From positions 4,836,001 to 4,900,000 of the forward strand of contig OX485806.1 in assembly GCA_950295325.1 (NCBI GenBank): 64,000 nt of DNA, read 5' to 3'. Under the pieces are notes generated by a model that was not told the origin of the DNA, did not search any database, and was given only the letters and a program-made list of their open reading frames with translations. Shown in pieces: positions 20,138 to 64,000 of this stretch. Source of the stretch: Polytrichum commune. Its lineage: Eukaryota > Streptophyta > Polytrichopsida > Polytrichales > Polytrichaceae. Both the position numbers and the translations under genes were made by a program. Position 1 is the first letter of the stretch. Each line of letters begins with the position of its first letter.

Positions 20138-20176
<39 letters not shown>

Positions 20177-20319: not shown

Positions 20320-20351
<32 letters not shown>

Positions 20352-27207: not shown

Positions 27208-27670
27208 AGTAATCAGATTTATTTATTAGTCTCATATATATGTTATTTTTCATAAACGTGTATGACACACGTCACTCTATGTAATTTCACAATTTAGTGA
27301 ATACGTATATATAAAAATATATATATATATATATATAATTTTTTTGCTATGTTAAATTTATGAATCACTTGTACTTGTCCTTCACTTGTGCTCTTCCGTG
27401 AACATGTGTCCTTGTAGTTCTCTTCAATGAAGTCATCTATTTCCTCCAAAACTCGGTCACATATAATTTTTTTCCATATGTCAAACCCATTTTGCACGGT
27501 TATGGGTACTAAATTCCACGGCCATAAGGATAAAAAATTCGAATATTTTGAGGAATATACCATTTAAAATATTTTTATTTTTATTTTTGGAAATTTTATT
27601 ACTAAAAATAAAATCTCTCCGCTCGAAATTCAGAAAATCTACGCTCTATGCTCTACGCTCATGCCCTAGC
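27208..27670 (-). repeat. Tn1 right subterminal region and terminal inverted repeat
   Basis: AT-rich, with an AT dinucleotide run at about 27318-27337. The minus-strand motif 'atccttatggccgtggaattt' lies at about 27512-27532, the counterpart of the left subterminal motif. The inverted end proper is about 27613-27670. Confidence 0.6.
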
Positions 27671-42500: not shown

Positions 42501-43584
42501 ATGACAACATATGCCCGCACCAACACACTAACCAAATACACCATAACCCACCCAACGGGCCACATACCTACTGAAGAACTCACAATACACAAACTTACTA
42601 CCACCCTCCCTCACCACAACCACATCCACATAAACAACACCACAAACCTTACCCCACATATAACCCCAAAAAACCCCCCCACCATACATATACCAATATA
42701 TGATATCCACAGCATAGGACATATTTATTACATAACACACTCACACCTTAGAACCCCTAAAACCAAAATCATACATTACTACATATGGAGGAACTCCACA
42801 CTCATTCTACTCTGTGGAGATATACAACCCAACCCGGGCCCACTCCCATATATCATCAAACATCCTCATAAGAAATATACACAAAAAACAAAAACAATGC
42901 TTCATAACAAATACAATCACACACAATATAATCATAAAACACCAATCCCCAAAATACCTCCTAATGCTACAATGTGGAGACATTCACCCAAACCCGGGAC
43001 CTATGCCAAACCTTCTCCAAAAACACCCCGCCATTCACAAAAGAAGACAAACAACCTACTTTCTACCCAGCACGATTAAATTTCAACCAGAATACCAACA
43101 TCTGGCCAAAACATTCAAACCTTTTTTCCAAAACACACACCATCTACACGCACAAACAATCCTCTCATTCCCATATTTATATAATCACATACAACAACAT
43201 ACCAATCACCCCCCACCACGGATCATTTACGCAATAGTCGTAACGATCAGCCCATCCATTGAAGCATGTAACACATACCTCCAACAATCACCTATACACA
43301 ACTGGACATCACAAATACTAGGAAAAATGACACAATTACCTAATCCACCAGAAAGACACATAGATACCCCACATCCATACACACAATTTTGTAACATATA
43401 TAATGATACAATCATCCCCCCCCCCAACACAATCCATAAAAAATTATACGACTACATACACCTAAACCATGATTCACTTAGTATACAAAACCTACAAGAA
43501 GCTTTTCCATACCTACCAAGACAACTCATAACGGAGGCATTAAGGTACAACGAACCAATAAATGAATACACGCACCCCAGGAAT
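42501..43584 (+). pseudogene. LINE2 ORF2 N-terminal region with two 2A-like motifs
   Basis: Two overlapping frames each carry a 2A-like peptide. Frame one has LILLCGDIQPNPGP (motif at 42816-42842). Frame two has LMLQCGDIHPNPGP (motif at 42976-43002), followed by MPNLLQ and the same domain as in LINE1 (YQHLAK, NPPERHID, HPYTQF, TIHKKLYDYI). The acidic E of the 2A pattern is Q or H here; such variants occur in other LINEs. The second frame reaches the Tn2 border and stops a few codons later. The endonuclease and reverse transcriptase are not in the window. The two motifs look like an internal duplication that ended out of frame. Confidence 0.75.
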
Positions 43585-43660
43585 GCTACGATGTGAGCGG
43601 TGAGTGGTGAGCGGTGAGCGGTGAGCAGATCTCGTGAGCAGAAAATCAAAATTTGAAACT
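43585..43660 (+). repeat. Tn2 left terminal repeat with GTGAGCG heptamers
   Basis: Five head-to-tail heptamers GTGAGCG, GTGAGTG, GTGAGCG, GTGAGCG, GTGAGCA occupy 43593-43627. They match in kind the pieces found in both Tn1 ends. Confidence 0.65.
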
Positions 43661-44423: not shown

Positions 44424-45907
44424 TTACATCAGATCCGAATCACTGTGATCAGCTGATGATGAAGACATTCTAGAATCACTAATATCTGCATCAGAGGAGG
44501 CCTGACCATCAGATTCTAAAGCTTCTATATCCAAAAACTCTAAAACTCTCCCCGGACGATATTTAGATGTAAAAGTCTGATAAGAACCTCCAGCTAGTTG
44601 ATTAGCAATATCATTTGCATATGTAGGAAGTTGCCAAGACTTTGGAGGGCTGGGATAGAATTTAGGGTCACAAAAAAAAGGCCGGTGAATAGGATAGCCC
44701 AATTTATCGCATCTGCAAATGCCAATGGTACCATGTTCATAACTCAACTTTATAAGAAATGACAGTAAAAAACATAACACACGTAAGAAAATTTGTGGAC
44801 CTTACTCACTTAATAAACCGAGATCTTTTCACAATCCTCTCTACGGGGATATCTTCACCCTCAAGATCCTCTAAACTGGTGACACGGTCTTCAAGAGTGA
44901 CTTCAGAGGCTGCTCTAGAGATAATCAATGGAGCAAGTAAGGCCTCAAAAATATCAACGTCAGCCTCTAATGCCGCAATGTGACGGTGCACATTGCGGCA
45001 TGCATGAATGGAAGATCCTGCAAATAAAGAAGTTGGAAAAAACTTAGTACAAAAACAACTATGAATTTTGTAGACCAAAACAATATTAACGATTAACCAA
45101 CTGAAATGGAAGATTACAAAGACATACCGGTCGCTGCCGTGCAGTCTAGAATAATATCCCATGGGGAGCTACATGCTTCAATTAGCATTTGCATTAGAAG
45201 CACGGACTTTTCACGAGGCCCTCGCCATGGTGTGGATCCATTAGTTAGCTGGTCCTCACGAGAGACCAAGTTCTGGAGAATATCATCCCGTGCAACATCC
45301 ACCCCATAAGGATCCAATGCAGGGACATGGCGAAATGAAAACTTCGATGGAGGTGACCCCGGCACGCTCCTGACCGCCAATGAAATACCGAACCTCATGG
45401 TCTACAATGTACGAGACATAAAGAACAACATTACTTTACAAAGTAAACAACACAACTGCGTGAGTATAATACTTAGGTGGGTCTACACTCAAAACTACCT
45501 CAAGGATTAAATTGAAACTGAATGCGGTGATCAGCAAGAAGACATAAGCTTTATCTTACAGTTGATGCTGGATTTATTGGGGATGTGAGATGAAGGCGGT
45601 TCATTCCCCACCACTCTTTCCGAATTGCAAAACCATACGATTTGCAATATCCAAGAATATTGGACTTCGTACTCATGCGAAAAGGGTGAAACAAAATAAT
45701 TGCCCCGTTGTCGTGCAGATGTTCGTCGGCAAAGTCAAAGAGTGGTTGTAACCACTCTTTCGATTCTTGATTCCAAGCGGGAATGGACGACGGTGGGTCT
45801 GATATGCCAGGAACATGAAGACCTTCCGGTATATCTGCAAGAATCAAGTCCAAACAGGGATGGTCCTCCGGAGAACCCTTGTAGTGCCGGGTTTTGTTTT
45901 TTGAGTG
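44424..45907 (-). CDS. 3' half of the Tn2 gene: methyltransferase-like domain
   Basis: Four exons. The motif order IV, then the WxGxREK helix, then motif I is that of beta-class N4-cytosine/N6-adenine methyltransferases, where a 'HPTQKP' segment precedes the SAM-binding loop. SAM binding is suggested by the hydrophobic strand DIILD followed by CTAATGSS and AALEAD. The glycines usual in FxGxG are mostly replaced, and motif IV lacks the PPY/PPW. The protein could have lost catalysis or changed its substrate. The last exon ends in an acidic Ser/Asp tail (DADISDSRMSSSSADHSDS). Confidence 0.72.
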
Positions 45908-48900
45908 CTGCACCCAGCTCAACCCCCAGCCACCCTTAGACTCAAATCAAATTCAGTCAAATATCAACTCCTAACCCCAAACCAGATTCCCTCAACCCAC
46001 AGTCAAGCTCACAGTCATATCAACCTCACTAACATATTAGACCCCAAAAAATGTGTATCGGGGCCGAGACACCTTATATGAGTCCTACATTTCAATTTCA
46101 GATTTTTAGAAAAATCAAAACTTGACACTTCTACCCCCTACCAGAATCCCCTCAACACTCACCCATCCTTAGACTCAAATCAAATTCAGTTACATATCAA
46201 CTCATAACCCCCGAACCAGATTCCCTCAACCCATAGTCAAGCTCACACTCTTATAAAAATCACTAACATATTAGAACCCAAAAAATGTGTGTCGGGGCCG
46301 AGACACCTTTGTGAGGCCAAACCCCCCACCCTTAAGCGTCCGTAGTCCGAGTAGTGGGTTTGGGCTCACATTCCTCCGCGGTATTGGATTTGGACTTGGA
46401 TGAGTCCATAGTGCAAGGTTCACCCTTCAAGTGGTCTTGGATTTAACTGGAATTTCACTTTTAACAACTCAATGTACGATTTCAATACGTATGTGGAGAA
46501 TGCACAAGTTAACTATGTTATTTTAACCTCCTTATGCTCGGGTGCTATTTTGTCTTTGTTTGCTTCTAACGTCCATCCGGCCGCTTTAGCTACACAAGCC
46601 CTTAAGGATATCCCTCTCCTAAATGGAGTCCGTGCCGTTGACTCTATACTACCACTTGAACTATCACTTGTGTATTCCGTATCGCTACTATAAGAGGTCT
46701 CACTTGGTGTCTCCATACCGTACATAAGCCTTTAAGTATTAAGAAATACTTATGTGACTTATGTCAATCTCTCCCTCGCACCTTTGGTCTTTGCTTCCTT
46801 TGTCTTGCCATCGCGAGAGTGCTCCACATTCTCCATTAATTTGTGCACGTGGTTTATTTTTAAAGAGAGGATGCAAGTGTTAAAAAAACACTATTCTCTA
46901 TAGTCAATCTCAAATACATTTACTTGTGAAAGCCACACATAACACTAACTAGCATAATGTAACTAACTACTTGTCTATGAGCTAATTAGGTAGGCTATCT
47001 ACTAAGCTCCTTCATGAACCCATCTCTTTACTTTCTAATTACATAAACCTAGCTCCTTCATAAACCTAGCTCCTTCATAAACCCAGCTCCTTCATAAACC
47101 CAGCTTCTTAGCTTCTAACTAAACAAACCCAGCTCCTTCATGAACCCAGCTCCTTAGCTTCTAACTAAACAAACCCAGGTCCTTCATAAACCCAGCTCTT
47201 TACTTTCTAACTAAACAAACCCAGCTCCTTCATAAACCCAGCTCCTTCATGAACCCACAACTTTGTAGTTGTAATCCCCAACTACCTCACTAATTATTCA
47301 AGCCCTTAACTAATCTTCCTACCTAATTTCCCTAATTCTACTAACAACCCCTTTCTAATCACACAATTCTTCTCTAATCCTAAAATCCTAAAATCCTAGA
47401 GAGGAGAGGGGGAGAGAGAATTTCCTAACTTCACTAAGACTAACTAATCCACACAAGTATATTTTTGCACTCATCACAACATCAAGTGCTCAACTCTTAA
47501 ACATGGAACTTGCAACCACGTGTATTCAAAACATGAACTTTAAGTACCACAAATTGGAATCATGAATTAACTTTAAAATCCTTCACGTCAACACTAATTC
47601 TACCAAGAGGTCAAGCCCTCTTCAAGGCTAACAAGCCTTGGCTCTCAAACTAAAAACTAAGCACACACATGTGCTCCAATATGGCTTCCCACACCCACAC
47701 TTATAACTCGTGGGGTGCCTTGGAGCACAAAGGAAAGAGAGGATGAGTGAGGGAAGAATGAGGGATTATATAGTAAGCTTGAGGGGGTGAGCACCCTCAA
47801 GGCTCACGATAAGCCCTTGAGATTTCCTCCTACTTAGTAGGCGCCAATCCTATCTTCTAAGCCTTCCTCCCTCAAATGATCAACAAGGATCCTAATTCGA
47901 ACATTTAACTAGCCTTGGCTTTCTACCTACCACACTTTACCAAACTTGGGATGCTTCAACCCAAACTTAGCCTCCTTCGCTTTCCGCCGCCATAACTTTC
48001 TCCCCTTACTTTCCCAAATCGTCGCTCACCACTTAATTCAAACCACGATGCTTAACTCGTGATTTGATTGGTGCTTTGAGAATTTGCTTATCCTCCACCT
48101 TGCGTTCTTCCTTGGACCTTCCCCATTAAGTGGCCATGATGAGGTGGTCCACTTGTGCGCTCCATGTGATCCTCCATTCATCCCAATTCGAATGCACTTG
48201 CCTCTTGAGTCACTTTGGTTGTCTCCATCCATTTGTACTAGCCTACTCACTAACTATTCAATCCAAGTTCTCCTTACCTATCCTCATTCACTCAAATCCT
48301 TCCGAAGGTAAAAACACAATAACAACTCACATCCTAGCCTCTTACAACATGGTACTTCTAAGACTAACATTTCACTCTTTTTATATTTTTGTGAAGTAAC
48401 ATGCTACTTCAAAGTGCATCAACTAACGTTTCAAGGGTCTAAGACTAAATGTGGGCACCCTTTTGGGCTCACATAATCGGCGACCATCGGGGGATGAATC
48501 CAAACATCTCTTGCTCCAAGGGTAAGTTGCCTAGTCAAGCTCGGTACTCCTTACATCTACTTCCCGATGTACGGGTAGGAAAAAGCTCACCATTCAACGT
48601 TTCCAATTGAATTGAATTATTAGGAAAGACCTCATAGACAAGGTAAGGTCCTAACCATACCGCATTGAATTTCGCCGGAAATTCAAGCTTTCGTGCGTCT
48701 TGAATCATGACCATCATTCCCGGTGTTAGGGCCCTTCTCTTATGTCGTTTGTCGAAAGTAATCTTTCTCCTTCTTTGGATTGCCTCAATATGTTGAGCCG
48801 CCATTCTCCTCCCTTCGTCAAGTGCTTCCAAATCGGTTAGTCGATTTCGTAAGGATTGACTTTCGGTAAGTCTCGTACTCACGGCCACCCTAAGTGACTC

Positions 48901-51900
48901 GACTTCATATTGGATTGGTAGTGTCGCTTCAAGACCATAGACTAAGGAAAATGGTGTAGCACGCGTAGTTACCTTATAGGTTGTACGGTATGCCCAAAGT
49001 GCCGCCGTTAGTTTCGTATCCCAATCCCGCTTCGAGTCTATAACCGTCTTGCGTAGTATACTCACCAAAATTCCGTTAACCCTTTCCGTTTGTCCATTGG
49101 TTTGTGGGTGGTAGGGAGTAGTCTTCCGGTGATCAATTTTAAATTTCTCTGTCATCTCTCGAATCAAGTCATTCAAAAAGTGAGTACCCCTATCGCTTAC
49201 TAGGATCTTCGGCACCCCGAACCGCGAAATTATGTTTTCGTACATAAATGTTGCCGCGTGTTCCGCCGTGTCGGTCTTCACCGCTTTGGCTTCCGCCCAC
49301 TTGGTGAGGTACTCGGTTGCCACCACAATATATTTCATTCCTTTTGAAGATTGGGGATGGACCTCACCCACATAGTCGATGCCCCATTTTTCGAAAGGAA
49401 TTAAGGGTAATGATACATGTAAAGGCATCTCCATTCTAAGGTCGTCTCGGGCATACCGTTGGCAAGCGTCGCATTTCCTTACATAGTCATGGGCGTCCTT
49501 AAATAGTGTAGGCCAAAAGTAGCCCGCTCTAAGTATTTTTTGCCCGGTGAGTTGACCCGAGAAGTGACCGCCGCAAGCGCTATCGTGGCAAGCGATTAAA
49601 ATCGCTTCAACCTCCGTTTTTGACACGCATCGTCGTAAAATACCATCGGACCCCCTTCTAAACAACCTATGGCCCACTACAACAAATTGCCTACTATTTA
49701 CCCTCACCTTCCTTCTCTCTTCTTTTGTCCACTCTTTGGGCAACTTGTGGGTTGTTAGAAATTTCACTATGCCCGCATACCACTCCGGTGTAGAAGTGAC
49801 CACAAAGAGGCTATCATCTACTAACATATCATTTACCGGATTTTTTCCTATCTCCTCCGACAACCTAGACAAGTGGTCCGCTTGTAAATGCATACGACCC
49901 GGTTTATATTCCACCGTGTAGTCGAATTCTTCTAATAACAAAACCCACCTAGCTAACCTACCACTTAACTCCGCCTTGTTAATTAGATACTTGATAGCCA
50001 TGTGGTCAACAAAAAATACAACCGGGTTGCACATGAGGTAATGCCTAAACTTTTTAACGGAAAACACCATGGCTAGGCACTCCCTCTCCGTTGTAGAGTA
50101 GTTTCTTTCGGCGGGGGTCAATTGCTTACTCGCATAAGCTATAGGTTGATCCTTCTCTTTTTCTCCCGTTGCTTGACAAAGCGCACTCCCTATTGCCACA
50201 TTACTAGCATCACAATAGACGTGAAAAGGTTTACCCCAATTGGGTGGTATCAACACCGGATAGGTGCTCAACCTATCCCGCAATTCCTCAAAGGCTTTTT
50301 GACAAGCATCCGTCCACTCGAATTTGACATCCTTTTTTAGCAAATGGGTAATGGGCACCGCTATCTTTGAAAAATTAGGAATAAGTTCCCGGTACCATCC
50401 CACATATCCTAACAACTTAGAGATCCCCTTGGAATTGGTTGGAGTTGCCAAGTCGCTTATGGCCGCAATCTTATCCGGATCGGGTTCTCTACCTTTCTCA
50501 CTAACAACATAACCCAACAACACTCCCTTATTCACTCCCAAAAATGTCTTATCCGGGTTCAATGCTAACCTCATCTTCCTACACCTAACCAATGCCTCCC
50601 TAACACAATGTAGGTGATCATCCACATTACTTTGTGTGCTAAAATCGTCCACAAAGACGGTCATGGATTTGAACAACAAGTCGGTGAAGATATACATTAC
50701 TAATCGTTGGAAAGTAGCCGGGGCATTACATAACCCAAATGGCATCACTACCCACACAAAAGTACCCCAAGGTGTAGTAAAAGCCGTTTTATGGATATCT
50801 TGGAGGGCTATGGAAATTTGATTATAACCCGCATACCCATCCATAAAGGTATATCGCGAATGACCTCCAACCTCCTCAAGCAACAAGGTGATAAAAGGTA
50901 AGGGGAAGTGATCCTTTTGTGTGCACGAATTCAATTTCCTATAGTCGACACAAACCCTTAATTTCCCATTTTTTTTCTTTACTAAGACCATAGGAGAAAC
51001 CCAATCCATGATTTCCACCGGCTTGATAAACCCGGCCTTCAATAACCTTTCCAATTCCGCTTTCACCAACAATTGCAATTGAGGATTCATCCTCCTCTCC
51101 TTTTGTCTAATTGGCCTCGCCCCCGGAATTAAAGGAATCCGGTGCTCTACCATTTCCCTAGGAATTCCCTTAAGCTCATCGTAGGACCATGCAAAAGTAT
51201 CACTAAACTCATCCACCAAATTGCTATACTCCCTAACCTCTTTCTCCCCCAATTTGGAGCCCATCTTCATTTGTCGGGTTTTTCCATTCTTTAATTTCAC
51301 ATCCACGTACCGCCAATCCGCTTCCGACACATGTGTTTGTTCCTCTTTGTTCCGATACCAATCGGAAGGCACATTGGGGTAATCTTTCACATCTTGACCC
51401 ACAACTATCCCCGTAGACGTGGTCTTGAAATGTAAAGGCTCCTCCAATTTCGATGACTCAATAATCACATCCTCCTCTTGAATCCCATCTACATGAATTA
51501 AACTAACCTCACCCTCTTCCACGTCATCTACCCAAGGTGTTAACCCACCGCTAACCCACTCTTCCTCGGTGAGCACCTCACATGGCTCCAACAATGAGCC
51601 CTCTCCTAGACTAACACTAGGAAATTCACTCCCTAAGCCTACTTGGTGAAATGTAACCATTACATCAACCTCGGACTCGGGGTACTCCCTTAGCCATTGG
51701 GCATAATCCCCATTATCCCCATAATTGTAAAAATTAGGACCTAGACTTCCCGAGCCCGAATCTATAACAACCCTTTGACCTTTGGGATGGACGACTCCCA
51801 CCAATGCCTTGCCAATCTCATTCTCGTTTAAGTCATCAATTTCCTTCTCCAATGGCAAATACATCTCCTTCTTCATCCATCCTTCTAATGAACCAATGGA

Positions 51901-54900
51901 CATTATGACCCTATTACCCTCCGGACCATAAGTGATGGATGGTTTAGGTCCACCCCAATTGACCATAGCATTCGCCATCCGCAACCAAGGCCTACCTAGC
52001 AAAATGGGGAAGGTGTCCTTGTTGGAGTGCATTTTAATGACATGGAAGGTGACCAAGTACTCCTCACCTCCCGTAGTCATTCTACAATCCTTGATCATCC
52101 CCAAAGGCGTAGTCGAACTTTGATTTGCCATATTTATGACCAAAGGTGAAGGCCCCGTGAGTCCAAGTCCCAATTTTTTCATAGTATCCTCCGGTAGTAT
52201 ATTTAGACTACTCCCTCCGTCGACTAGCACATTAGGAACCACCTTATCTACTATAACAACTTCTATTTCTATAGCTTTCACGTCTCTTCCACCTTGTGAT
52301 TGGATCCTAGCGGCTATTTTAGCTTTCACCTTCCTCATCCTCTTGTGTACCGGCATTCCCTCCTTTAATGTTTTCCTTGCCGTGGGTGAAATTTCCAATA
52401 GTTGGCCGAAAGTAATATCCGCCTTGAGTGTACTAAGGTCCGCCCACAAGTCGTACCCGGTAGATCTTTCCACCTTAGAATTACCCACTACGTCGAATTC
52501 GTCTACGGGAACCCCCGGTCCTTCCCATTCACCCACATCGCTATTATCCAAGTCATGTACCGCATTAGTCCTCTCCCTATCTTGTAAAATTATATTTTCC
52601 CTCTCCACATCCTTAGTAGCTCTTCTAGCTACCCTATCCAACTCGGAGAGATTAATCTCTTCATCCGAAGAGTAATTTCCTTGCTCTCCTATTCCTACCT
52701 CCAACGGGGCATCCCCTCTCCTAGCCCTAGTAGTTACCGCTAGGGCAGGTGCTTCTTCAACCACACCCTTACCCTTCACTAACTCATATGTAATAGCATT
52801 GGTGTGAGGAGGCCATTGACTTTGCTCCTCTCCAATTCTCGTTGGGAGAGGAAGCATGTCATCACATGTGGCCTCCAACACTCCATCCATGAACCTAACA
52901 TCTTGGGAGTTAGATGGTCCCGGATCCGTTGGAGGCGCTTGTCTCCCGTTACTACCATTAGGTGGAACTCCTTGTCTATTTTGTATTGGAATGTAACCGG
53001 TTGTAGTTTGCAAGCCCGCCGGTGGATGAAAAGTTTGCCTAGCATTACTATGGTCATAGTATAAGTTAGGTGGCCTAAGTTCATTGGCCGGTACTCCTTG
53101 TGGCCTAGCACCTCGCATATTATCCCTTGCTTGTTGTTGTGGATTAGCCACCGGGTAAGGGACATTAATTATTTTGTCCGGTTGGCGACACGTATCCGAG
53201 GGATGACTTCCTCCACAATTGCTACAATTAAACTCTTGACCTTCGGACCAACATTGTCCTTGAGCGTGCCACCTTCCACAAAAGGGATGAAATTCCTTCT
53301 TCTCTAAATTTTGGCCACCTTGCCCTCTAGGTTGTGGTCCTCTATTGCTTCCATTTCCATAGTGAGGTGGCGCTTGACCTCGTTGATTTTGTTGAGGTGG
53401 GTTACCGTTTCCTCTTTGGTCACGGTTTTATCCACTTCTACAAAATTGACGCGTGTGGCCCGGTTGGCCACATTGGACACACCATAATCCGGAAGAATGC
53501 CTACCCGACTCAACCGGGGGTGGAGGCCCCGGTTGTTGACTCCGGATCATTAATGACATTTGATCCGTGAGGCTTTGCATTTGTTTTATCATAGCCTCTT
53601 GGAATCCTAGTTGGCTAGCACCTAGTCTTCTCTCAACCTCCTCCAAGTGTGGATCCGTTCTAGGGGCCGGTAGTGCCAAAAGAGGTGCCGGTTCCCTAAC
53701 CGCTAAAGGTCGGGGACCGGTGTCCACAATGGCATATGGAATTTGGTTCTCATACTTAGCGGGTTCTACCGCTACCACCCTAGGGCGTATGGGGATGAAT
53801 TGTGGGATCAATTCATCCTCCCTTCTCCATAGCCTTTCGTGATCTTTATCCAAGTTTTCAATATCTCTAGCCGCACGCTTGGCATCCGCCAAGGTCAAGG
53901 GATTCCTTTCTAGAACACCCCTAATAGTTCCGGACTTAAAAAACCCTTGAATGAAAAATTGCTTTAGCGTGTCGTCGTTGAGCATGGTACCCACAAATCT
54001 AATGCACACTAAATCAAACCTCCTAATGTAAGCCGAAATTTCTTCCTCCCTTCCTTGCTTCAATGACGACAATGCCCTTAATGCGGTACTTTGACCCACT
54101 TCCGGCCTAAATTCGTTAAGAAACTCCCTTTGTAATTGTTCCCATCCCCTAAAATGTCCCTCGGCATGATCCCGATACCATTCATAGGCTTCCCCCTCTA
54201 GAGTGGTAGGAAACCACACTAACCAATAACCCGGGTCGGTTATGAGGAAGCTAGCCAACCGTTCGATATACCGTTCCATGTGCCGAGAGGGGTCCTCATC
54301 CTTGGTCCCATAAAATTTAGGGAGATGAGATGGCATATCCATCGCCGCTAAATTTTGTGGAACCACAATTGGTAGGCCTCTTGGCCTAACCAATGGGTCT
54401 ATTGGAGGTATAGGAGGTATGGGCGGAATTGGGGGTATGGGTGGTGGATCCATCCCCCGTTCCTCGGCCATGGTGACCGGTGAACTATTCAACAATCCCC
54501 TATCAACTTCTACCGGGAATTCTTCTCTAAGTGTGTAATTTTCCGAAGAAGTTTCACCACTCAATTTGGAGGGAGTGATCTCCTCTTCAAGTTGAGCTCC
54601 AAGTTCTAAGGTGTCTAGAATTGACCTAGTCCTAGGTTCGACGTTCAAACAACTCTCTATTCTAACATTGTCTTGTTCTAATCTATCACTGATTTTAGAG
54701 GACCGCCTCTTTCGAGTAGATTTCTCTAGTCCTACTATCAAACTTGGTTTTTGTGAGCGAGTCCTACCTTGCATTCCATAAGAATCGATCGACCCTCACT
54801 TGACCACACATAATCCTAGCAATTCCCCTCTTAATATTTTCACTTGTCTTGGTGTGGTTATAATTTTTTTTAGGAGGTGAGGAAAAGAACCTGCAAGCCC

Positions 54901-57900
54901 ACTTAGGTGAAAGAATCCCAATAGGGGATAGGCATGTTCATGTTAATTTTTTGGTTAAGTCGGAGCATCACCTCCGCACCTTCCCGCAAATTAACACTCA
55001 CCACAATACCGATTGTGAGGGGGTGACCTTCCGAGTAGATTATGTTAAAAGTCGAGGCTTCACCCTTCAACTTCTCACACCATCCACAATTCGGGAATTA
55101 CCCTCTACAACGGATAACAACAATCACGAGTACAAAAGGCATTCCTTAATTAGTTAATGAGTTCACTTTGAAGAAATAAACATACCTTGAGCAATCGCAT
55201 CCCCCTGTGAGTTAACACTCCCCTCAATCGTGACTCAATGTAACAACACCATAAACTTTGTGAAATATTAATTTAATCTAGAGCATGAAATGACAACTCC
55301 CAAAACTTTGAGACTCACCCCGAGGTGAGTGTCAAAGTTCAATGTCCTAAGGTGAATTTACCCTCTAATGTTTTAATGAGCTACTCGGTTATAGGTTCCT
55401 TTTAAGTTCTTAGCAAATCCCCAAAAAGGTTGAGGACGTACCTTCGCCGCGCTCCTTCCTCAAAAATGAATTTGCGTAATTGACAATGCAATTCATTCCA
55501 AGGAATAGTTGAAATACAATGAATTCAAATGTAACCCAAAGAGAGAATACTTACCGAGTTTCGGGTGCTCCTTCCCTTCTCTCAAGTTTGTGTCTCCAAT
55601 TTTTCCTAGTTGCCTCCAAGTCTCCTAGTCGCCTCCAAGTCTTGTAACTACCTTCCGCTTCGCTCCCGGCGGACGCACCAATTATGTGAGGCCAAACCCC
55701 CCACCCTTAAGCGTCCGTAGTCCGAGTAGTGGGTTTGGGCTCACATTCCTCCGCGGTATTGGATTTGGACTTGGATGAGTCCATAGTGCAAGGTTCACCC
55801 TTCAAGTGGTCTTGGATTTAACTGGAATTTCACTTTTAACAACTCAATGTACGATTTCAATACGTATGTGGAGAATGCACAAGTTAACTATGTTATTTTA
55901 ACCTCCTTATGCTCGGGTGCTATTTTGTCTTTGTTTGCTTCTAACGTCCATCCGGCCGCTTTAGCTACACAAGCCCTTAAGGATATCCCTCTCCTAAATG
56001 GAGTCCGTGCCGTTGACTCTATACTACCACTTGAACTATCACTTGTGTATTCCGTATCGCTACTATAAGAGGTCTCACTTGGTGTCTCCATACCGTACAT
56101 AAGCCTTTAAGTATTAAGAAATACTTATGTGACTTATGTCAATCTCTCCCTCGCACCTTTGGTCTTTGCTTCCTTTGTCTTGCCATCGCGAGAGTGCTCC
56201 ACATTCTCCATTAATTTGTGCACGTGGTTTATTTTTAAAGAGAGGATGCAAGTGTTAAAAAAACACTATTCTCTATAGTCAATCTCAAATACATTTACTT
56301 GTGAAAGCCACACATAACACTAACTAGCATAATGTAACTAACTACTTGTCTATGAGCTAATTAGGTAGGCTATCTACTAAGCTCCTTCATGAACCCATCT
56401 CTTTACTTTCTAATTACATAAACCTAGCTCCTTCATAAACCTAGCTCCTTCATAAACCCAGCTCCTTCATAAACCCAGCTTCTTAGCTTCTAACTAAACA
56501 AACCCAGCTCCTTCATGAACCCAGCTCCTTAGCTTCTAACTAAACAAACCCAGGTCCTTCATAAACCCAGCTCTTTACTTTCTAACTAAACAAACCCAGC
56601 TCCTTCATAAACCCAGCTCCTTCATGAACCCACAACTTTGTAGTTGTAATCCCCAACTACCTCACTAATTATTCAAGCCCTTAACTAATCTTCCTACCTA
56701 ATTTCCCTAATTCTACTAACAACCCCTTTCTAATCACACAATTCTTCTCTAATCCTAAAATCCTAAAATCCTAGAGAGGAGAGGGGGAGAGAGAATTTCC
56801 TAACTTCACTAAGACTAACTAATCCACACAAGTATATTTTTGCACTCATCACAACATCAAGTGCTCAACTCTTAAACATGGAACTTGCAACCACGTGTAT
56901 TCAAAACATGAACTTTAAGTACCACAAATTGGAATCATGAATTAACTTTAAAATCCTTCACGTCAACACTAATTCTACCAAGAGGTCAAGCCCTCTTCAA
57001 GGCTAACAAGCCTTGGCTCTCAAACTAAAAACTAAGCACACACATGTGCTCCAATATGGCTTCCCACACCCACACTTATAACTCGTGGGGTGCCTTGGAG
57101 CACAAAGGAAAGAGAGAGTGAGTGAGGGAAGAATGAGGGATTATATAGTAAGCTTGAGGGGGTGAGCACCCTCAAGGCTCACGATAAGCCCTTGAGATTT
57201 CCTCCTACTTAGTAGGCGCCAATCCTATCTTCTAAGCCTTCCTCCCTCAAATGATCAACAAGGATCCTAATTCGAACATTTAACTAGCCTTGGCTTTCTA
57301 CCTACCACACTTTACCAAACTTGGGATGCTTCAACCCAAACTTAGCCTCCTTCGCTTTCCGCCGCCATAACTTTCTCCCCTTACTTTCCCAAATCGTCGC
57401 TCACCACTTAATTCAAACCACGATGCTTAACTCGTGATTTGATTGGTGCTTTGAGAATTTGCTTATCCTCCACCTTGCGTTCTTCCTTGGACCTTCCCCA
57501 TTAAGTGGCCATGATGAGGTGGTCCACTTGTGCGCTCCATGTGATCCTCCATTCATCCCAATTCGAATGCACTTGCCTCTTGAGTCACTTTGGTTGTCTC
57601 CATCCATTTGTACTAGCCTACTCACTAACTATTCAATCCAAGTTCTCCTTACCTATCCTCATTCACTCAAATCCTTCCGAAGGTAAAAACACAATAACAA
57701 CTCACATCCTAGCCTCTTACAACATGGTACTTCTAAGACTAACATTTCACTCTTTTTATATTTTTGTGAAGTAACATGCTACTTCAAAGTGCATCAACTA
57801 ACGTTTCAAGGGTCTAAGACTAAATGTGGGCACCCTTTTGGGCTCACAACCTTATATGAGTCCTACATTTTAATTTCAGATTCTTAGAAAAATCAAAACT

Positions 57901-60900
57901 TTATACATCTACCCCCTACCAGAATCCCCTCTTCCTTCATCCACCCTTAGAGTCAAATCAAATTCAGTCACATATCAACTCCTAATTCCCGAACTAGATT
58001 CCCTCAACCCACAATCAAGCTCATAGTCATATCAAACTCACTAACCTATTAGACCCCAAAAAGAGTATATCGGGGCCGAGACACCTTTTATGAGTCCTAA
58101 ATTTCAGTTTCAGATTCTTAGAAAAATCAAAACTTGATATATCTACCCCCTTCCAGATTTCCCTCAACCCCCAGCCACCCTTAGAGTCAAATCAAATTCA
58201 GTCACATATCAACTCCTAACCCCCGAACTAGATTCCCTCAACCCACAGTCAAGCTCACAATCATAGCAAACTGACTAACATATTAGACCCCAAAAAGAGT
58301 ATATCGGGGCCGAGACACCTTTTATGAGTCTTACATTTCAATTTCAGATTTTTAGAAAAATCAAAACTTTATACATCTACCCCCTACCAGAATCCCCTCT
58401 TCCTTCACCCACCCTTAGACTCAAATCATAATCAGTCAAATATCAACTCCTAACCCCCAAACCAGATTCCCTCAAACCACAGTCAAGCTCACAGTCTTAT
58501 CAAAATCACGAACATATTAGACCCCAAAAAATGTTTGTCGGGGCCGAGACACCTCTTATGACTCCTACATTTCAATTTCAGATTTTGAGAAAAATCAAAA
58601 CTTGATATATCTACCCCCTACCAGATTTCCCTCAAGCCCCAGCCACCCTTAGACTCAAATCAAATTCAGTCACATATCAACTCCTAACCCCCGAACTAGA
58701 TTCCCTCAACCCACAGTCAAGCTCACAGTCATAGCAAACTGACTAACCTATTAGACCCCAAAAAGAGTATATCGGGGCCGAGACACTTTTTATGAGTCCT
58801 AAATTTCAATTTCAGATTCCTAGAAAAATCAAAACTTGATATATCTAACCCCCTACCAGATTTCCCTCAACCCCCAGCCACCCTTAGAGTCAAATCAAAT
58901 TCAGTCACATATCAACTCCTAATCCCCGAACTAGATTCCCTCAAACCACAATCAAGCTCATAGTCATATCAAACTCACTAACCTATTAGACCCCAAAAAG
59001 AGTATATCGGGGCCGAGACACCTTTTATGAGTCCTACATTTCAATTTCAGATTCTTAGAAAAATCAAAACTTGATATATCTACCCCCTACCAGATTTCCC
59101 TCAACCCCCAGCCACCCTTAGAGTCAAATCAAATTCAGTCACATATCAACTCCTAACCCCCGAACTAGATTCCCTCAACCCACAGTCAAGCTCACAGTCA
59201 TTACACATTTTTGTACCCTCATGTAGTTTTGCTATTCTACATATGAATGACAGGTACTCTATCGATGTTTCGGTTCCGATTGCTGAGATATGAAAGGCAG
59301 TAACTACTTAATGATAAATGTCGACCATACTGAAGTGCATAAATGTGAAGCCCAACCTGTGATGACATCATTATGGAAGGGCAGTACCTTAAGCATGAAT
59401 CTTTTCAACTCGTTATAGGAAGGGGTGAAATCACCCGTGTCACCGCCAAGAATGTCCTCCATTGAGGAGTTGAGAATGAGCTCTTCAAGTTGGATCTCAA
59501 GCTCCTCCCCCGGTGTCAAAATAGGAATTTGACTCAATTGCTCGTAGGAGGAATCGCGTTTTGTTCCTCTAGAAAATGTTGGAGCATGAGAGCCAGATTC
59601 ATATGTTGGACTAGGAGCAACGGGACTCTTACCTTCTGGCTCTGGAGGGGGGTTCATTTTCCTTTTGCCCTTCTTGGTGGACTTCTCTAGTGACTTCTGT
59701 AGCTTCTCCCGCTCTTTTTGATCAGCTCTCTCCTCAGCCTCTTTGACCCTCAGCGCTTTCTTTCGGTCCTCTTCGATGCGTCGTTTCATTGCCTTTGCCC
59801 TCTCATTCTCATCTTCAATGGCCTGTATGTCCAACATTTCAATTCCAGAATCACCTACATCCTCCCTTGACTTTCTGAGCTCAGTCTCAAAAGCAGGCGT
59901 AAAACTTGCAGCGCAATCAAGATACCAGGCACCGCCGGCAAGGTGAGAAGTTGTCCACGTGCGTTGTTGATGAGCTGAGAACATGCACGCTGAATTTGAT
60001 CTATCAAGCCATGCGGTCAAGAATATAGGAAGGTCTTCTTTGGAAATAGCGCCTTTCGCCAAAAGCTCGTACTTAAAGTACCTGGGTTACGACATAGCAC
60101 ATAACATTAAATTCTTGAATTCCTCAAATAGCAAGTCACATAATATCAACTGAAACAATTACTGAAATTAATGAGAATTACTTCAAGATTTGAGACGTAC
60201 CTAAAAAGAACTCTGCGGACAACTAGGTCAGATCCGTCAAATCCAACAAAATCGTCACCTTTCTTGAAGGAATCGTGTCCTCTGAAATATGTGTTGAACG
60301 CATGATCCCATAACTTCATGCGACAGTCTTCGATATACGCGGGCAACAACATTGGCTCACTGGCAAGACTCATGTTGATTGGAAGTCGGTCTTGACGCAT
60401 GGTCTCGTCAAAAACAATACTGGCCTGCTCAGAAATCTAGTAACCAAGACAATAAGCATCAGCTGCACTAATTGCATAAGCAAGACAACAAATGCACGAT
60501 TGCGTCAATGAAATTAAGAATGTGAGGTAGATAAAAGAAATGCCAACGAGGAATTCAAATAATTGAAAATTCATGAAATCAGTGGACTTACTCCTGCCCA
60601 AAAACTTGCTTTAGCCAGGAAATTTGCCAATCTCTCTTCGTTGATGGGCTTGGGAGGTAGCCTGCGGGCCTCGCGAGTGGAAGCAGATGAATTAAAGTAT
60701 TCTAGCCATTTTATTTTGAATGCGGGAGACGCCCTAGAAGTTGCAATGAGCTGGAGCTTCTCTAAGTTGAGTTCCGGTGAGAGTGAATTTAGGGTGTAAT
60801 GTCGCTCGATCTGTGTGACAGAGGGAATGTGACTTCGTGAGTCCTCTTCTCAAGGATAAGCTGAACAAATTGATATGGACAAAGAGGTAGGGGACCTACC

Positions 60901-62150
60901 TCACGAAGCCAACCGTCGGTAAGCTCCGGGTTAGCCACAGCAACAAGTTTTTCCATCTTGATGCGAAGTGCTACAACTTTCTTCTCAATTGCGGCATTCA
61001 TTGCAGCCGCCTTGTCAGCAGGGGAGACTTCTCCTTCTGTTTGCTCCACAAGCTGACGTACACCATCGTCCGCAGCGAGACCCAGTTCGTGCTGCACAAA
61101 GAGAGAACAAGAATGCATAAACCAAAATGTCATAAGAAAATGAAAACAAGAGTTGAAGATTCACGAAATTAGCCGGTTGCGATCAATAGAAAATGATTAT
61201 TCATGATTTCAAAAAATGTGAAATCAAACTAACAAATCACCTTAAATATGAAGTTTGTAAACACATTTAATGGCAACGAATACCAAGTCTTTTTTTGTGA
61301 CTTCTTGCATCTTTTGAAATCTGCCGGACTCAAAAGGTCACTGAACTGATCAATTGATATTAGACCATACTTCTGAACCCTGAACAGGGTATGGACAATG
61401 TTGGTCTTCACGTGCGAGTCCTCGGTATGTCTAAAATCAAAATCAAGTGAAAGATATTAGATTATTGAAATGAAAAGAAATGAATATGAAAAAAAAATGC
61501 ACTTATTTGTTAATGTTGTGCATGACTTGCATAACAAGTCCAACTTTCCCATTTGTATCAAGGAGAATCGAGTCCACCAAATAATGCCAAGACTCCTCAG
61601 TTCGGTGAAGTCTGTCAATGTGATTTAACCATGCTTGACGCCTATGGTTTCCGTCACACACAAAAAACATCATATTTGTTAAGTGTGCCAAATTTGGATC
61701 TGATAGGAGGAACGTGTTGAAAACATCATTTTTGGCGTTCCAAATAGGACCCCAAGAAGCTTTATCAACTTCTAACACTTCTTGTGTCTTACCGTCTTCA
61801 TTGGTGGTTGTGACATAAAACACCGAAGCGCCCTCCCTGTATCCGTGAACAAACTCTTGCTCGAGCTTAGCAAGATCGGATGATAGAGTTGGCCTTACCA
61901 TTGGCATTGCAAACATTCTGCACAAAGGAATACAAAATCGCGAGGAACTGACGGGTTGCAATCTCAAGCTTGTGATCGTCGACACTGAATTAAGTTTCTG
62001 CCGAGTCCGAATCTCATCCTCATCAGCCATAAATTGAGCATCATCCCCAAGAATATCTTCCTCTCCCTCAAGTCCGTCCTCAAGGATTTCCAACTCTGGC
62101 TGCATTCTTTCTGATACTTGTGTAGAAGGTGGCGAAGATGCAGCATGTAC
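44424..62150 (-). CDS. ParB-like/DNA methyltransferase fusion gene, Tn2 copy (ten exons)
   Basis: Exons (minus): 62150-61507, 61430-61241, 61091-60900, 60810-60592, 60436-60201, 60081-59388, 45907-45560, 45401-45128, 45017-44810, 44712-44424. All junction phases agree and the sum is 3294 bases, 1098 codons with the stop, without internal stops. Exon 1 holds a ParB/sulfiredoxin-like module (VRPTLSSD, then CDGNHRRQAW). Exon 6 holds a charged coiled coil. Exons 7-9 form a beta-type amino-methyltransferase: ILADIPEG, GAIILFHP, EWWGMN, then TPWRGPREK and the motif I region DCTAATG/SSIHACR with AALEAD. Motif IV is DIPE, not DPPY. The donor of exon 1 is ATAAGT instead of GTAAGT. The first Met is at 62105; an upstream exon is possible because an acceptor precedes 62150. 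Confidence 0.72.
45911..46309. repeat. 234-bp satellite, left part of intron array
   Basis: Anchors 'cggggccgagacacc' at 46059 and 46293 (234 bp apart). The last unit is cut by gypsy copy 2 directly after ACCTT. It continues at 57849. Confidence 0.92.
46310..48473 (-). repeat. 3' LTR of gypsy copy 2
   Basis: 2164 bp, TGTGAG...CTCACA at the ends. Near 47000-47260 it carries a minisatellite of 'cagctccttcataaac' units. Minus-strand CTATATAA at 47766-47773. Small open stretches inside are not genes. Confidence 0.95.
48535..53427 (-). CDS. Gypsy copy 2 Pol polyprotein
   Basis: Same frame as gag, directly after its TAA (53430-53428). There is no in-frame ATG before the first long part; the frame from GTG at 53151 gives 1538 residues. 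Just upstream is a zinc-knuckle-like CSNC-x3-H-x4-C. Then follow an aspartic protease (VLVDGGSSLN, about residue 308), reverse transcriptase (VCVDYRKLN, YAGYNQI, VFVDDFS), RNase H (VYCDASNVAIG, ending ADHLSRL), and integrase with an HHCC region (HFSGQ, CDACQRY) and a D-D-E core (IDYVGEV, VSDRGTHF, NGQTERVNG). It makes and inserts the DNA copy. All key motifs look intact. The VDD of the polymerase is the usual YVDD variant. No chromodomain is seen at the end. Confidence 0.93.
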   Translation of the reverse strand, partial: NRDQRGNGNPPQQNQRGQAPPHYGNGSNRGPQPRGQGGQNLEKKEFHPFCGRWHAQGQCWSEGQEFNCSNCGGSHPSDTCRQPDKIINVPYPVANPQQQARDNMRGARPQGVPANELRPPNLYYDHSNARQTFHPPAGLQTTTGYIPIQNRQGVPPNGSNGRQAPPTDPGPSNSQDVRFMDGVLEATCDDMLPLPTRIGEEQSQWPPHTNAITYELVKGKGVVEEAPALAVTTRARRGDAPLEVGIGEQGNYSSDEEINLSELDRVARRATKDVERENIILQDRERTNAVHDLDNSDVGEWEGPGVPVDEFDVVGNSKVERSTGYDLWADLSTLKADITFGQLLEISPTARKTLKEGMPVHKRMRKVKAKIAARIQSQGGRDVKAIEIEVVIVDKVVPNVLVDGGSSLNILPEDTMKKLGLGLTGPSPLVINMANQSSTTPLGMIKDCRMTTGGEEYLVTFHVIKMHSNKDTFPILLGRPWLRMANAMVNWGGPKPSITYGPEGNRVIMSIGSLEGWMKKEMYLPLEKEIDDLNENEIGKALVGVVHPKGQRVVIDSGSGSLGPNFYNYGDNGDYAQWLREYPESEVDVMVTFHQVGLGSEFPSVSLGEGSLLEPCEVLTEEEWVSGGLTPWVDDVEEGEVSLIHVDGIQEEDVIIESSKLEEPLHFKTTSTGIVVGQDVKDYPNVPSDWYRNKEEQTHVSEADWRYVDVKLKNGKTRQMKMGSKLGEKEVREYSNLVDEFSDTFAWSYDELKGIPREMVEHRIPLIPGARPIRQKERRMNPQLQLLVKAELERLLKAGFIKPVEIMDWVSPMVLVKKKNGKLRVCVDYRKLNSCTQKDHFPLPFITLLLEEVGGHSRYTFMDGYAGYNQISIALQDIHKTAFTTPWGTFVWVVMPFGLCNAPATFQRLVMYIFTDLLFKSMTVFVDDFSTQSNVDDHLHCVREALVRCRKMRLALNPDKTFLGVNKGVLLGYVVSEKGREPDPDKIAAISDLATPTNSKGISKLLGYVGWYRELIPNFSKIAVPITHLLKKDVKFEWTDACQKAFEELRDRLSTYPVLIPPNWGKPFHVYCDASNVAIGSALCQATGEKEKDQPIAYASKQLTPAERNYSTTERECLAMVFSVKKFRHYLMCNPVVFFVDHMAIKYLINKAELSGRLARWVLLLEEFDYTVEYKPGRMHLQADHLSRLSEEIGKNPVNDMLVDDSLFVVTSTPEWYAGIVKFLTTHKLPKEWTKEERRKVRVNSRQFVVVGHRLFRRGSDGILRRCVSKTEVEAILIACHDSACGGHFSGQLTGQKILRAGYFWPTLFKDAHDYVRKCDACQRYARDDLRMEMPLHVSLPLIPFEKWGIDYVGEVHPQSSKGMKYIVVATEYLTKWAEAKAVKTDTAEHAATFMYENIISRFGVPKILVSDRGTHFLNDLIREMTEKFKIDHRKTTPYHPQTNGQTERVNGILVSILRKTVIDSKRDWDTKLTAALWAYRTTYKVTTRATPFSLVYGLEATLPIQYEVESLRVAVSTRLTESQSLRNRLTDLEALDEGRRMAAQHIEAIQRRRKITFDKRHKRRALTPGMMVMIQDARKLEFPAKFNAVWLGPYLVYEVFPNNSIQLETLNGELFPTRTSGSRCKEYRA
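53428..54774 (-). CDS. Gypsy copy 2 Gag
   Basis: 448 residues from ATG 54774. It has a Pro-rich segment (PPIPPIPP), a retrotransposon gag domain (WLVWFPTTLEGEAYEWYRD, FLNEFRPEV) and, at the end, a zinc knuckle CVQC-x4-H-x4-C. It ends at TAA 53430-53428. Copy 1 has CAA at this codon, so the ancestral frame probably ran straight into pol. Whether the stop here is read through or kills Pol expression cannot be told from sequence. Confidence 0.92.
   Translation of the reverse strand: MQGRTRSQKPSLIVGLEKSTRKRRSSKISDRLEQDNVRIESCLNVEPRTRSILDTLELGAQLEEEITPSKLSGETSSENYTLREEFPVEVDRGLLNSSPVTMAEERGMDPPPIPPIPPIPPIPPIDPLVRPRGLPIVVPQNLAAMDMPSHLPKFYGTKDEDPSRHMERYIERLASFLITDPGYWLVWFPTTLEGEAYEWYRDHAEGHFRGWEQLQREFLNEFRPEVGQSTALRALSSLKQGREEEISAYIRRFDLVCIRFVGTMLNDDTLKQFFIQGFFKSGTIRGVLERNPLTLADAKRAARDIENLDKDHERLWRREDELIPQFIPIRPRVVAVEPAKYENQIPYAIVDTGPRPLAVREPAPLLALPAPRTDPHLEEVERRLGASQLGFQEAMIKQMQSLTDQMSLMIRSQQPGPPPPVESGRHSSGLWCVQCGQPGHTRQFCRSG
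54775..55661 (-). other. Gypsy copy 2 leader
   Basis: About 0.9 kb between primer site and gag with no coding signal. It may contain packaging sequence. Confidence 0.6.
55662..55680 (-). other. Primer-binding site of gypsy copy 2
   Basis: Minus strand TGGTGCGTCCGCCGGGAGC, four bases from the 5' LTR; fits a tRNA-Gly 3' end with about one mismatch (from memory). Confidence 0.72.
55685..57848 (-). repeat. 5' LTR of gypsy copy 2
   Basis: 2164 bp, same termini as the 3' LTR. It would contain the promoter of the element. The short-unit minisatellite lies at about 56380-56630. Confidence 0.95.
57141..57148 (-). promoter_or_regulatory. TATA-like box in gypsy 5' LTR
   Basis: Minus-strand CTATATAA in otherwise mixed sequence, preserved in all three LTRs of the family (also 3035-3042 and 47766-47773). 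It is a candidate for the start of genomic RNA transcription. Confidence 0.45.
57849..59200. repeat. 234-bp satellite, right part of intron array
   Basis: Anchors at 58071, 58305, 58539, 58773 and 59008. Units share 'tatcggggccgagacacc', 'atttcaatttcagatt' and 'attccctcaa'. It ends shortly before exon 6 of the Tn2 gene. Confidence 0.93.
59388..62150 (-). CDS. 5' half of the Tn2 gene: ParB-like module and coiled coil
   Basis: Six exons. Matches to the Tn1 copy: PLCR..YPKVRPIV against PLCR..MPMVRPTL, EGNHRVTAW against DGNHRRQAW, exon 2 by its WY-PL-x-F core, and exon 3 KMVAIANP against KLVAVANP. Exons 4-6 (SPAFKIKWLEYFN, EDCRMKLWDHAFN, ISKEDLPIFLTAWLDRS, then a Glu/Lys/Arg-rich helix KRRIEEDRKKALR) have no counterpart in Tn1. 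The ParB/sulfiredoxin fold binds nucleotides or cuts DNA in bacteria; the activity here is unknown. Confidence 0.72.
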
Positions 62151-62271
62151 CTACAATTTTGAAATTTTATTTTCAAGAAAGTAAGAATCATTTCTTCGGG
62201 GAAACACATAAACGCTTTTAGCTGATCCACATATTCACCTCGATCAATTGAAAATCAACAATAGCAACTAA
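62151..62271. other. Intron or 5' flank of the Tn2 gene
   Basis: Short stretch between the acceptor of exon 1 and the upstream satellite. No feature recognised beyond the acceptor TTGTAG. Confidence 0.35.
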
Positions 62272-64000
62272 CCACCTACCAGATATCCCTCAACCCCCAG
62301 CAACCCTTGGACTCAAATCAAATTCAGTCACATATCAAGTCATAACCCCCGAACCAGATTCCCTCAACCCCAAGTCAACCGCATAGCCTTATCAAACTCA
62401 CTAACATATTAAACCCCCAAAAAGGTGTGTCGGGGCCGAGACACCTTTTATAAGCTTCAATTTCAATTTCAGATTCTTAGAAATATCAAAATTTGACACT
62501 TCTACCCCCTACCAGAATCCCCTCCTCCCTCACCCACCCTGAGCCTCACATCAAATTCAGTCATATATCAAGTCCTAACCCCCGAACCAGATTCCCTCAA
62601 CCCCAAGTCAACCTCATAGTGATATCAAACTCACTAACATATTAGACCCCCAACAAGGTGTGTCGGGGCCGAGACACCTTTTATGAGTCCCACATTTCAA
62701 TTTCAGATCTTTAGAAATATCAAAATTTCACACTTCTACCCCCTACCAGAATCCCCTCCTCCCTCACCCACCCTGAGCCTCACATCAAATTCAGTCATAT
62801 ATCAAGTCCTAACCCCCGAACCAGATTCCCTCAACCCCAAGTCAACCTCATAGTCTTATCAAACTCACTAACATATTAGACCCCCAAAAATGTGTGTCGG
62901 GGCCGAGACACCTTTTATGAGTCCCACATTTCAATTTCAGATCTCTAGAAATATCAAAATTTGGCACTTCTACCCCCTACCAGAATCCCCTCCTCCCTCA
63001 CCCACCCTGAGCCTCACATCATATTCAGTCACATATCAAGTCATAACCCCCGAACCAGATTCCCTCCACCCCAAGTCAACCTCATAGTGATATCAAACTC
63101 ACTAACATATTAGACCCCCAAAAAGGTGTGTCGGGGCCGAGACACCTTTTATGAGCTTCAATTTCAATTTCAGATTTTTAGAAATATCAAAATTTGACAC
63201 TTCTACCCCCTACCAGAATCCCCTCTTCCCACACCCACAATGAGCCTCACATCAAATTCAGTCACATATCAAGTCCGAACCCCCGAACCAGATTCCCTCA
63301 ACCCCAAGTCAACCTCATAGTCTTATCAAACTCACTAACATATTAGACCCCCAAAAAGGTGTGTCGGGGCCGAGACACCTTTTATGAGCTTCAATTTCAA
63401 TTTCAGATTTTTAGAAAATTCAAAATTTGACACTTCTAACTCTTACCAGAATCCCCTCTTCCCACACCCACAATCAGCCTCACATCAAAATCAATCACAT
63501 ATCAAGTCATAACCCCCGAACCAAATTCCCTCCACCCCAAATCAACCTCATAGTGATATCAAACTCACTAACATATTAGACCCCCAGAAAGGTGTATCGG
63601 GGCCGAGACACCTTTTATGAGCCCACATTTCAATTTCAGATCTCTAGAAATATCAAAATTTGGCACTTCTACCCCCTACCAGAATCCCCTCCTCCCTCAC
63701 CCACCCTGAGCTTCACATTAAATTCAGTCACATATCAAGTCCTAACCCCCGAACCAGATTCCTTCAACCCCAAGTCAACCTCATAGTCTTATCAAACTCA
63801 CTGACATATTAGACCCCCAAAAATGTGTGTCGGGGCCGAGACACCTTTTATGAGTCCCACATTTCAATTTCAGATTTTTAGAAAATTCAAAATTTGACAC
63901 TTCTACCCCCTACCAGAATCCCCTCCTCCCTCACCCACCCTGAGCCTCACATCAAATTCAGTCACATATCAAGTCATAACCCCCGAACCAGATTCCCTCA
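62272..64000. repeat. 233-bp satellite array upstream of the Tn2 gene
   Basis: Anchors at 62431, 62664, 62898, 63132, 63365, 63598 and 63831 (233-234 bp), running off the window. It is the same family as the intron array but a distinct subtype ('gtgtgtcggggcc', 'cctcctccctcacccaccctgagcc'). Small open stretches inside repeat with the unit and are not genes. Confidence 0.93.

Follow-up and report, generated by a model that had tools for sequence, protein, structure and literature searches.

A predicted ParB-like/methyltransferase gene in Polytrichum commune

The window, a 64,000-bp stretch of the genome of the moss Polytrichum commune (contig OX485806.1, C4 in our numbering, positions 4,836,001 to 4,900,000; assembly of 407.8 Mb in 64 contigs), contains a minus-strand gene of ten exons (62105-44424), the predicted product of which joins a ParB-like module to a domain assigned to the beta-class amino-methyltransferases. 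As the first-pass annotation had proposed, the exons join in phase, and the frame carries through to a terminal TAA. Its count of 1098 codons was not reproduced; the gene comprises 1083 codons including the stop and thus encodes a protein of 1082 residues. The gene does lie within the 44424-62150 interval proposed initially, but the element that carries it spans from 43580 to approximately 8.5 kb past the window. The exons, in coding order, are as follows.

61507-62105 (-), exon 1: predicted ParB-like module with GNHR motif; AT donor
61241-61430 (-), exon 2: equivalent exists in copy 1, a second copy in the window (below)
60900-61091 (-), exon 3: equivalent exists in copy 1
60592-60810 (-), exon 4: placed by splice sites and phase
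60201-60436 (-), exon 5: placed by splice sites and phase only
59388-60081 (-), exon 6: charged linker at its end; relatives read through exons 6 and 7 in one frame
45560-45907 (-), exon 7: region of methyltransferase motif IV (DIPE)
45128-45401 (-), exon 8: WRGPREK and the first part of motif I
44810-45017 (-), exon 9: remainder of motif I (GSS) and acidic ALEAD
44424-44712 (-), exon 10: C-terminal tail and stop

Among the database relatives listed, one covers the exon 3/4 junction, none covers the exon 4/5 junction and none spans the junctions of exon 5. A single open frame crosses the exon 6/7 junction in 11 of the 207 listed, including P0043, which reads through approximately 40 extra residues; the two halves therefore constitute one gene. 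That this gene is not a chance arrangement of frames follows from the PF01555 match of its methyltransferase half (5e-6) and from the 414 protein relatives of its ParB exon detected at E 0.1 or better.

The introns are all GT-AG, with the sole exception of the exon-1 donor, which is AT (after 61507). In the 30 best-matching genomic copies this donor is GT in 27 and AT in three, namely the window gene, an identical twin at C4:5114589, and L047. GT is also found at this position in copy 1, in a copy on contig C1 (the C1 copy), and in the C4 twin of the latter. An AT-AC intron after exon 1 was considered and rejected on reading the sequence, since the AC acceptor two bases further on shifts exon 2 out of frame. 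The AT donor is probably a splicing lesion of the window gene, and because GT prevails in 27 of the 30 copies, we regard the gene as nearly, not fully, intact: its earlier description as apparently intact holds for the phase of the exons through the stop but not for the exon-1 donor.

Intron 6, described at first as a 13.5-kb intron splitting the gene, is indeed 13,480 bp long, but 11.5 kb of it is the following insertion.

46310-57848 (-): Gypsy LTR retrotransposon in intron 6, with LTRs at 46310-48473 and 55685-57848; inserted sequence as opposed to gene sequence

The insertion (11,539 bp) is recent; its 2164-bp LTRs differ by 2 mismatches, it is flanked by a 5-bp target duplication (ACCTT), and its insertion site is a 234-bp minisatellite within the intron. 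Since 11,539 bp of intron 6 derive from the insertion, the intron earlier measured approximately 1.9 kb. Together, the Gypsy insertion and the AT donor rule out an intact gene with a huge intron.

The gene resides in a DNA transposon, head-to-head with a transposase gene

The initial proposal that the gene is a passenger of a DNA transposon was borne out, in that terminal inverted repeats (TIRs), target duplications and head-to-head transposases were found. The window holds two related elements, the second of which contains the gene described above (copy 2).

43580-64000, continuing to C4:4908523: element 2, bounded by TIRs and a 12-bp target duplication
16694-27664: element 1, a decayed relative, with a 42-nt imperfect TIR at both ends
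18710-21757 (-): copy 1 of the ParB-like/methyltransferase gene, a pseudogene; motif IV DAPE
23389-27207 (+): element 1 transposase, frame-broken, divergent from copy 1

Element 2 totals 28,944 bp, nested Gypsy included. Its TIR at 43585-43645 pairs with positions 8447-8516 of L020, the adjoining stretch to the right (score 32.5; 0 of 50 shuffles as high). The 12-bp target duplication, ACACGCACCCCA, occurs at 43568-43579 and at C4:4908524-4908535, with 5 and 7 unmatched bases between it and the TIRs; an automatic search exactly at the TIR edges returned none, and the duplication was spotted by eye further out and then located. The element inserted within a LINE: both of its flanks map adjacently in the window's other LINE, and the LINE frame, read by eye, runs on across the empty site. 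Its transposase (L020 4082-7896, +) lies right of the window, head-to-head with the window gene; ORFs 1 and 2 of this transposase are separated by an in-frame stop.

The window's non-LTR retrotransposons are located at 5219-8369 (-) and 42471-43596 (+), the latter being the one in which element 2 sits, and by eye their ORFs contain the 2A-like sequences GDTETNPGP and GDIQPNPGP. An ORF at 3693-4109 includes a PHD-finger-like sequence, CYVCGEKTGAATILLCDQCQRGWHMACL, also noted by eye.

In element 1, the TIR is matched by 0 of 100 shuffles; a target duplication was looked for at this element and not found. Copy 1 is 35-37% identical to the window gene and carries an N-terminal stop (relative to P0102 and P0116), a TAG in exon 3 and a TGA in exon 8; its middle exons are missing. 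A 7-bp TGAGAGT array (20084-20365) stands in place of exons 4-6, so exon 3 of copy 1 runs directly to exon 7. The first ORFs of the element 1 and element 2 transposases are 48.9% identical.

A further element, on contig C1, is 15,167 bp long, has a 10-bp target duplication (TCTGTTACCT), and again has its transposase and methyltransferase genes head-to-head, with one in-frame stop in its ParB exon. A first guess at its TIRs (score 17, null maximum 16) was replaced by a better pair found with the element 2 TIRs. Between its two genes there seems to be an ORF (L022:7844-8763; C1:9657844-9658763) with the kinase-like sequences HCDLSFTNI and GDWGSA, seen by eye; the piece at 7844-8275 had no match in Pfam. 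Overall, a head-to-head transposase is present at five of the ten loci examined (copies 1 and 2, C1, L060 and L062). None was seen within 8 kb at L058, L059, L061 or L063, and the near twin of the C1 copy at C4:44.11 Mb had no transposase motif over 30 kb.

Target duplications of MULEs are approximately 8-11 bp long. Those found here measure 10-12 bp and the C1 transposase, alone among the transposases, has a SWIM match (PF04434; E 0.039, 14.0 bits, below the cut-off of 19.6), which together suggest a MULE-type element; a MULE transposase domain had no match at E 1. The family is thus probably MULE-type.

The ParB exon is multicopy and under purifying selection

The ParB exon has at least 150 matches in the genome, some of them partial, at 100-41% identity and distributed over contigs C1-C7; this number is a floor because only 150 of 1231 candidates were scored. 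Of the best 30 copies, 22 are stop-free. Pairwise dN/dS within this sample, which favours close, intact copies and in which stop codons were skipped in eight copies, has a median of 0.28, and 98% of the pairs used are below 0.5 (the 390 pairs, out of 435, whose dS lay between 0.05 and 1.2). Across the 30 copies, purifying selection acts on the ParB exon. A twin of exon 1 lies 217 kb from it on C4 (5114589-5115185), is 100% identical and shares the AT donor; it is of very recent origin, by transposition or by segmental duplication.

One alternative is a host gene, domesticated and only by chance situated among transposons; in its favour, the protein relatives listed include two named ones from Ceratodon purpureus (P0004 and P0006). 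The dispersal of ParB-exon matches over seven contigs, and the location of copies beside a transposase inside elements bounded by TIRs and target duplications, refute this highly improbable reading for the copies in the elements described here. We assign a still smaller, practically negligible probability to an assembly artefact or bacterial contamination. The bacterial-type domains would fit such an origin, as would the much stronger bacterial-type methyltransferase matches on contigs C10 and C12 (E 1e-25 and 2e-16), but it is refuted by the corresponding intron positions of the two diverged paralogues, by the 59-Mb contig, and by the occurrence of matches on seven contigs. C10 and C12 are themselves perhaps bacterial contaminants.

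A methyltransferase fold with an altered motif IV

Exons 7-9 match PF01555 with 27.0 bits (curated cut-off 26.7; E 5.2e-6), and the C1 copy does so with 32.4 bits over positions 1-216 of the 221 in the model. The same half is similar to a phage methylase (26% identical over 215 residues, E 8e-7), and its motif I region matches the solved DpnA adenine methyltransferase 5hfj (E 1e-4). Alignment with three phage methylases places the motifs in the order IV - WRGxREK - I, with the SAM motif I present. A search with the full-length protein and scans of viral contigs each returned no match. The Pfam match, the phage methylase match, and the motif order all agree with the earlier assignment, and by these sequence criteria the C-terminal half belongs to the beta-class amino-methyltransferases (PF01555).

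Motif IV departs from the expected form. It reads DIPE in the window gene and DAPE in copy 1, neither of which fits (D/N/S)PP(Y/F/W). When the 87 listed relatives were searched by pattern, the motif was located in 54, as D-x-P-E in 48 and as other variants in six, and none of these 54 has an aromatic residue at the last position. Known amino-methyltransferases use an aromatic residue in motif IV, which D-x-P-E lacks. The C1 copy has DIPY (codons GAT ATT CCA TAT), and the ordinary residue therefore persists in the gene family; the near twin of this copy at C4:44.11 Mb has DIPD. Among the 87 listed relatives, SAM motif I was located in 39 and the acidic residue following it in 15, both being conserved where located. 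For the rotifer enzyme N4CMT, the sections of the published report considered here describe an SPPY-to-APPA change, removing both Ser and Tyr, that abolishes activity (PMC8885841). As read from these sequences, the predominance of D-x-P-E, here and in 48 of the 54 relatives, speaks against ordinary 6mA or 4mC catalysis, and because most listed relatives have this form, the methyltransferase may be non-catalytic or of changed chemistry in many subfamilies.

The methyltransferase could also be catalytically dead, its fold retained only for structure or dimerisation, and the protein a DNA-binding transposition or regulatory factor (a SAM sensor or scaffold). This possibility, which we consider less likely than not, accords with the missing aromatic residue in all listed relatives in which the motif was found, with the glutamate in both window copies, and with purifying selection, which shows the ParB exon to be in use. 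Against it stand the DIPY of the C1 copy, which matches PF01555 along almost the full length of the model, and the listed relatives that have kept SAM motif I and the acidic residue following it.

The N-terminal half is probably ParB-like

A GNHR motif is found in 114 of 120 listed relatives of exon 1, inside a conserved module. The ParB exon has nothing above the curated cut-offs of Pfam and NCBIfam. The commonest weak match is a ParB PHROG (14 of 33 family members, best E 0.068), and DUF6551 is weakly matched in 4 of 33 (best E 0.021). Searches with the ParB region returned no match in plasmids and, in phages, one chance match only (E 8); a PDB search with the ParB family had no match.

In direct comparisons, HHalign against one RepB gave a probability of 0.06%, and a profile comparison of the whole module with nine bacterial ParB/RepB proteins was equalled by 8 of 100 shuffles and is not significant. 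The moss module differs from these nine proteins by a 45-residue insert; with the insert left aside, the motif order IPL - GNHR/GERR - V-x-x-I - (E)N aligns in register, a likeness that is not significant by sequence. When the insert is omitted, a choice made after seeing the whole-module result, the whole ParB domain aligns in register (HHalign probability 1.4%). None of 60 shuffles then exceeds the local score, but 45 of 60 do as well when the alignment is global. The resemblance to ParB claimed in the first-pass annotation is thus plausible: GNHR, the weak PHROG matches and the in-register alignment are suggestive of it, but it passes no library cut-off and the global comparison is no better than most shuffles. 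We infer that the N-terminal half is probably ParB-like and may adopt a ParB fold.

Palindromic arrays lie upstream of the gene

The window contains three tandem arrays associated with the two copies.

62271-64000, continuing to L020 1684: tandem array with a 233-bp unit, separating the two divergent genes in element 2, with AAAAGGTGTCTCGG-CC-CCGACACACCTTTT or a near match in its units
57849-59201: intronic array of the same 234-bp family as the element 2 array; palindrome eroded
22037-23240: 127-bp tandem array of element 1, between its two genes, with palindrome GACCCCTGCG-CCAA-CGCAGGGGTC

The element 2 array has 14 sites, of which six are exact and eight have 1-2 differences from the palindrome. 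At C1, the array between the divergent genes has a 104-bp unit with palindrome TGTTTGTGCGC-TG-GCGCACAAACA. Each of these three palindromes (copy 1, copy 2 and C1) was equalled by 0 of 100 shuffled units. That of the intronic array is not significant (11 of 60 and 18 of 100 shuffles as good), and the remaining arrays of the window and L022 with units of 30-300 bp have no significant palindrome either (lowest 14 of 100). We also examined the 8 kb upstream of exon 1 at six further loci. L060, L061 and L062 each have one or more arrays with a palindrome that none of 100 shuffles equalled; the L058 array, of the same family as that of copy 2, gave a borderline 2 of 100, and no significant palindrome occurs within these 8 kb at L059 or L063. 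Six of the nine loci thus have one or more arrays that reach 0 of 100, with several arrays or array versions tested per locus (a 341-bp version at L060 gave 4 of 100). Another palindromic array, of 32 bp, was noted at L062 (oriented 2733-2885) within the transposase gene, apparently in its intron.

At these six loci the palindrome arms are more conserved than the remainder of the unit. Conservation of the arms versus the rest of the unit is 0.99/0.60 at L062 (9 sites), 0.98/0.74 at L061 (21), 0.97/0.87 at L060 (8), 0.96/0.91 at copy 1 (8), 0.98/0.86 at copy 2 (14) and 0.93/0.72 at C1 (5), based on one array per locus, small numbers of sites, and a mismatch-tolerant choice of sites by similarity to the pattern that favours the arms somewhat. 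In the intronic array the arms score 0.96 and the sequence outside them 0.93. The two spacer bases of the L062 palindrome vary (0.33 and 0.67). Constant half-sites with a variable spacer look like the binding sites of a dimeric protein.

Bacterial ParB binds palindromic parS, and for this reason the ParB-like module is the first candidate binder of these palindromes, with the transposase as the second. Subterminal repeats of En/Spm elements are transposase binding sites, and it is possible, though less likely than not, that the arrays serve the transposase in this manner while the ParB-like/methyltransferase protein acts elsewhere. The position of the array between divergent genes at copy 1, copy 2, C1, L060 and L062 is consistent with such a role, and the transposases, 49-56% identical between elements, have diverged enough to follow changing sites. 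Against such a role, the four loci without a transposase within 8 kb still have arrays upstream of exon 1. Among these, L061 has a strong palindrome in an array approximately 6.6 kb upstream of exon 1, which by itself does not indicate the identity of the binder.

Relationship to known systems

An accessory protein with ParB-like and DNA methyltransferase domains is described for algae in the portion of a published report consulted here, for Sola1-1_Ec32 of Ectocarpus (PMC12477816), so a ParB-methyltransferase transposon gene is of a known kind. Like the algal accessory proteins as characterized there, the moss protein has both domains fused, with the reservation stated above for the ParB half, and is encoded by a DNA transposon, on the strand opposite to the transposase gene. 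By that same account, Sola1-1_Ec32 has a Sola-1 transposase and an Ectocarpus host, whereas here the host is a moss and the transposase looks MULE-like. The altered motif IV and the palindromic arrays are features seen in the moss family, and the Ectocarpus element may share them. No algal protein is named among the matches listed. New here are the moss host, the probably MULE-type element, the D-x-P-E motif IV, and the palindromic arrays upstream of the gene; among the top-listed results of literature searches, which were not worded for the motif or the arrays, there was no work on such genes in mosses or in MULE-type elements, nor on their D-x-P-E motif or palindromic arrays.

Two other eukaryotic systems share parts of this arrangement, as far as their accounts were available to us. 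N4CMT of bdelloid rotifers is likewise a bacterial-type amino-methyltransferase in a eukaryote, but it has SPPY and writes 4mC (PMC8885841), as opposed to the D-x-P-E and ParB-like module of the moss protein. Dinoflagellate and charophyte retrotransposons with captured cytosine methyltransferases are also mobile elements carrying their own DNA methyltransferase; unlike the moss transposon gene, these enzymes are of the C5-cytosine class and reside in retrotransposons (PMC5890265).

A model for self-recognition by the element

Our preferred explanation, which we consider somewhat more probable than not, is that the gene serves a large DNA transposon family of many copies as an accessory gene, its product binding the element that encodes it and either marking that element or protecting it from silencing. 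In this model, the gene head-to-head with the transposase gene would yield a 1082-residue protein in which a charged linker joins the ParB-like module to the beta-class amino-methyltransferase fold. The ParB-like module would bind the inverted repeats of the array, as ParB does on palindromic parS, and would thereby bring the methyltransferase domain to the control region of the element itself, where that domain may deposit or read a methyl mark. The observations supply the architecture, the ends of two elements, the lower bound on copies, purifying selection on the ParB exon and the conserved palindromes; the ParB fold, the binding, the catalysis and the effect against silencing are inferred. 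Such a mark could keep the element active against host silencing or tell the transposase which DNA is its own. Contrary to this explanation, the transposases beside the window's two genes are both broken.

A more speculative version, which we regard as possible but not favoured, is a partition-like self-recognition in which each lineage has a ParB-like/methyltransferase protein and a private palindromic array, of its own sequence and the same design. Most lineages would then lack the catalytic aromatic residue, and the element would be marked or read by altered chemistry or by binding alone.

With transposons that bring their own DNA methyltransferase, nature provides a way to test if mobile DNA is able to write epigenetic marks on its own sequence or to read them there. 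Because this single genome holds at least 150 ParB-exon matches, candidate targets in the form of the arrays, and a motif series of Y, D and E, recognition and catalysis are separately testable within it.
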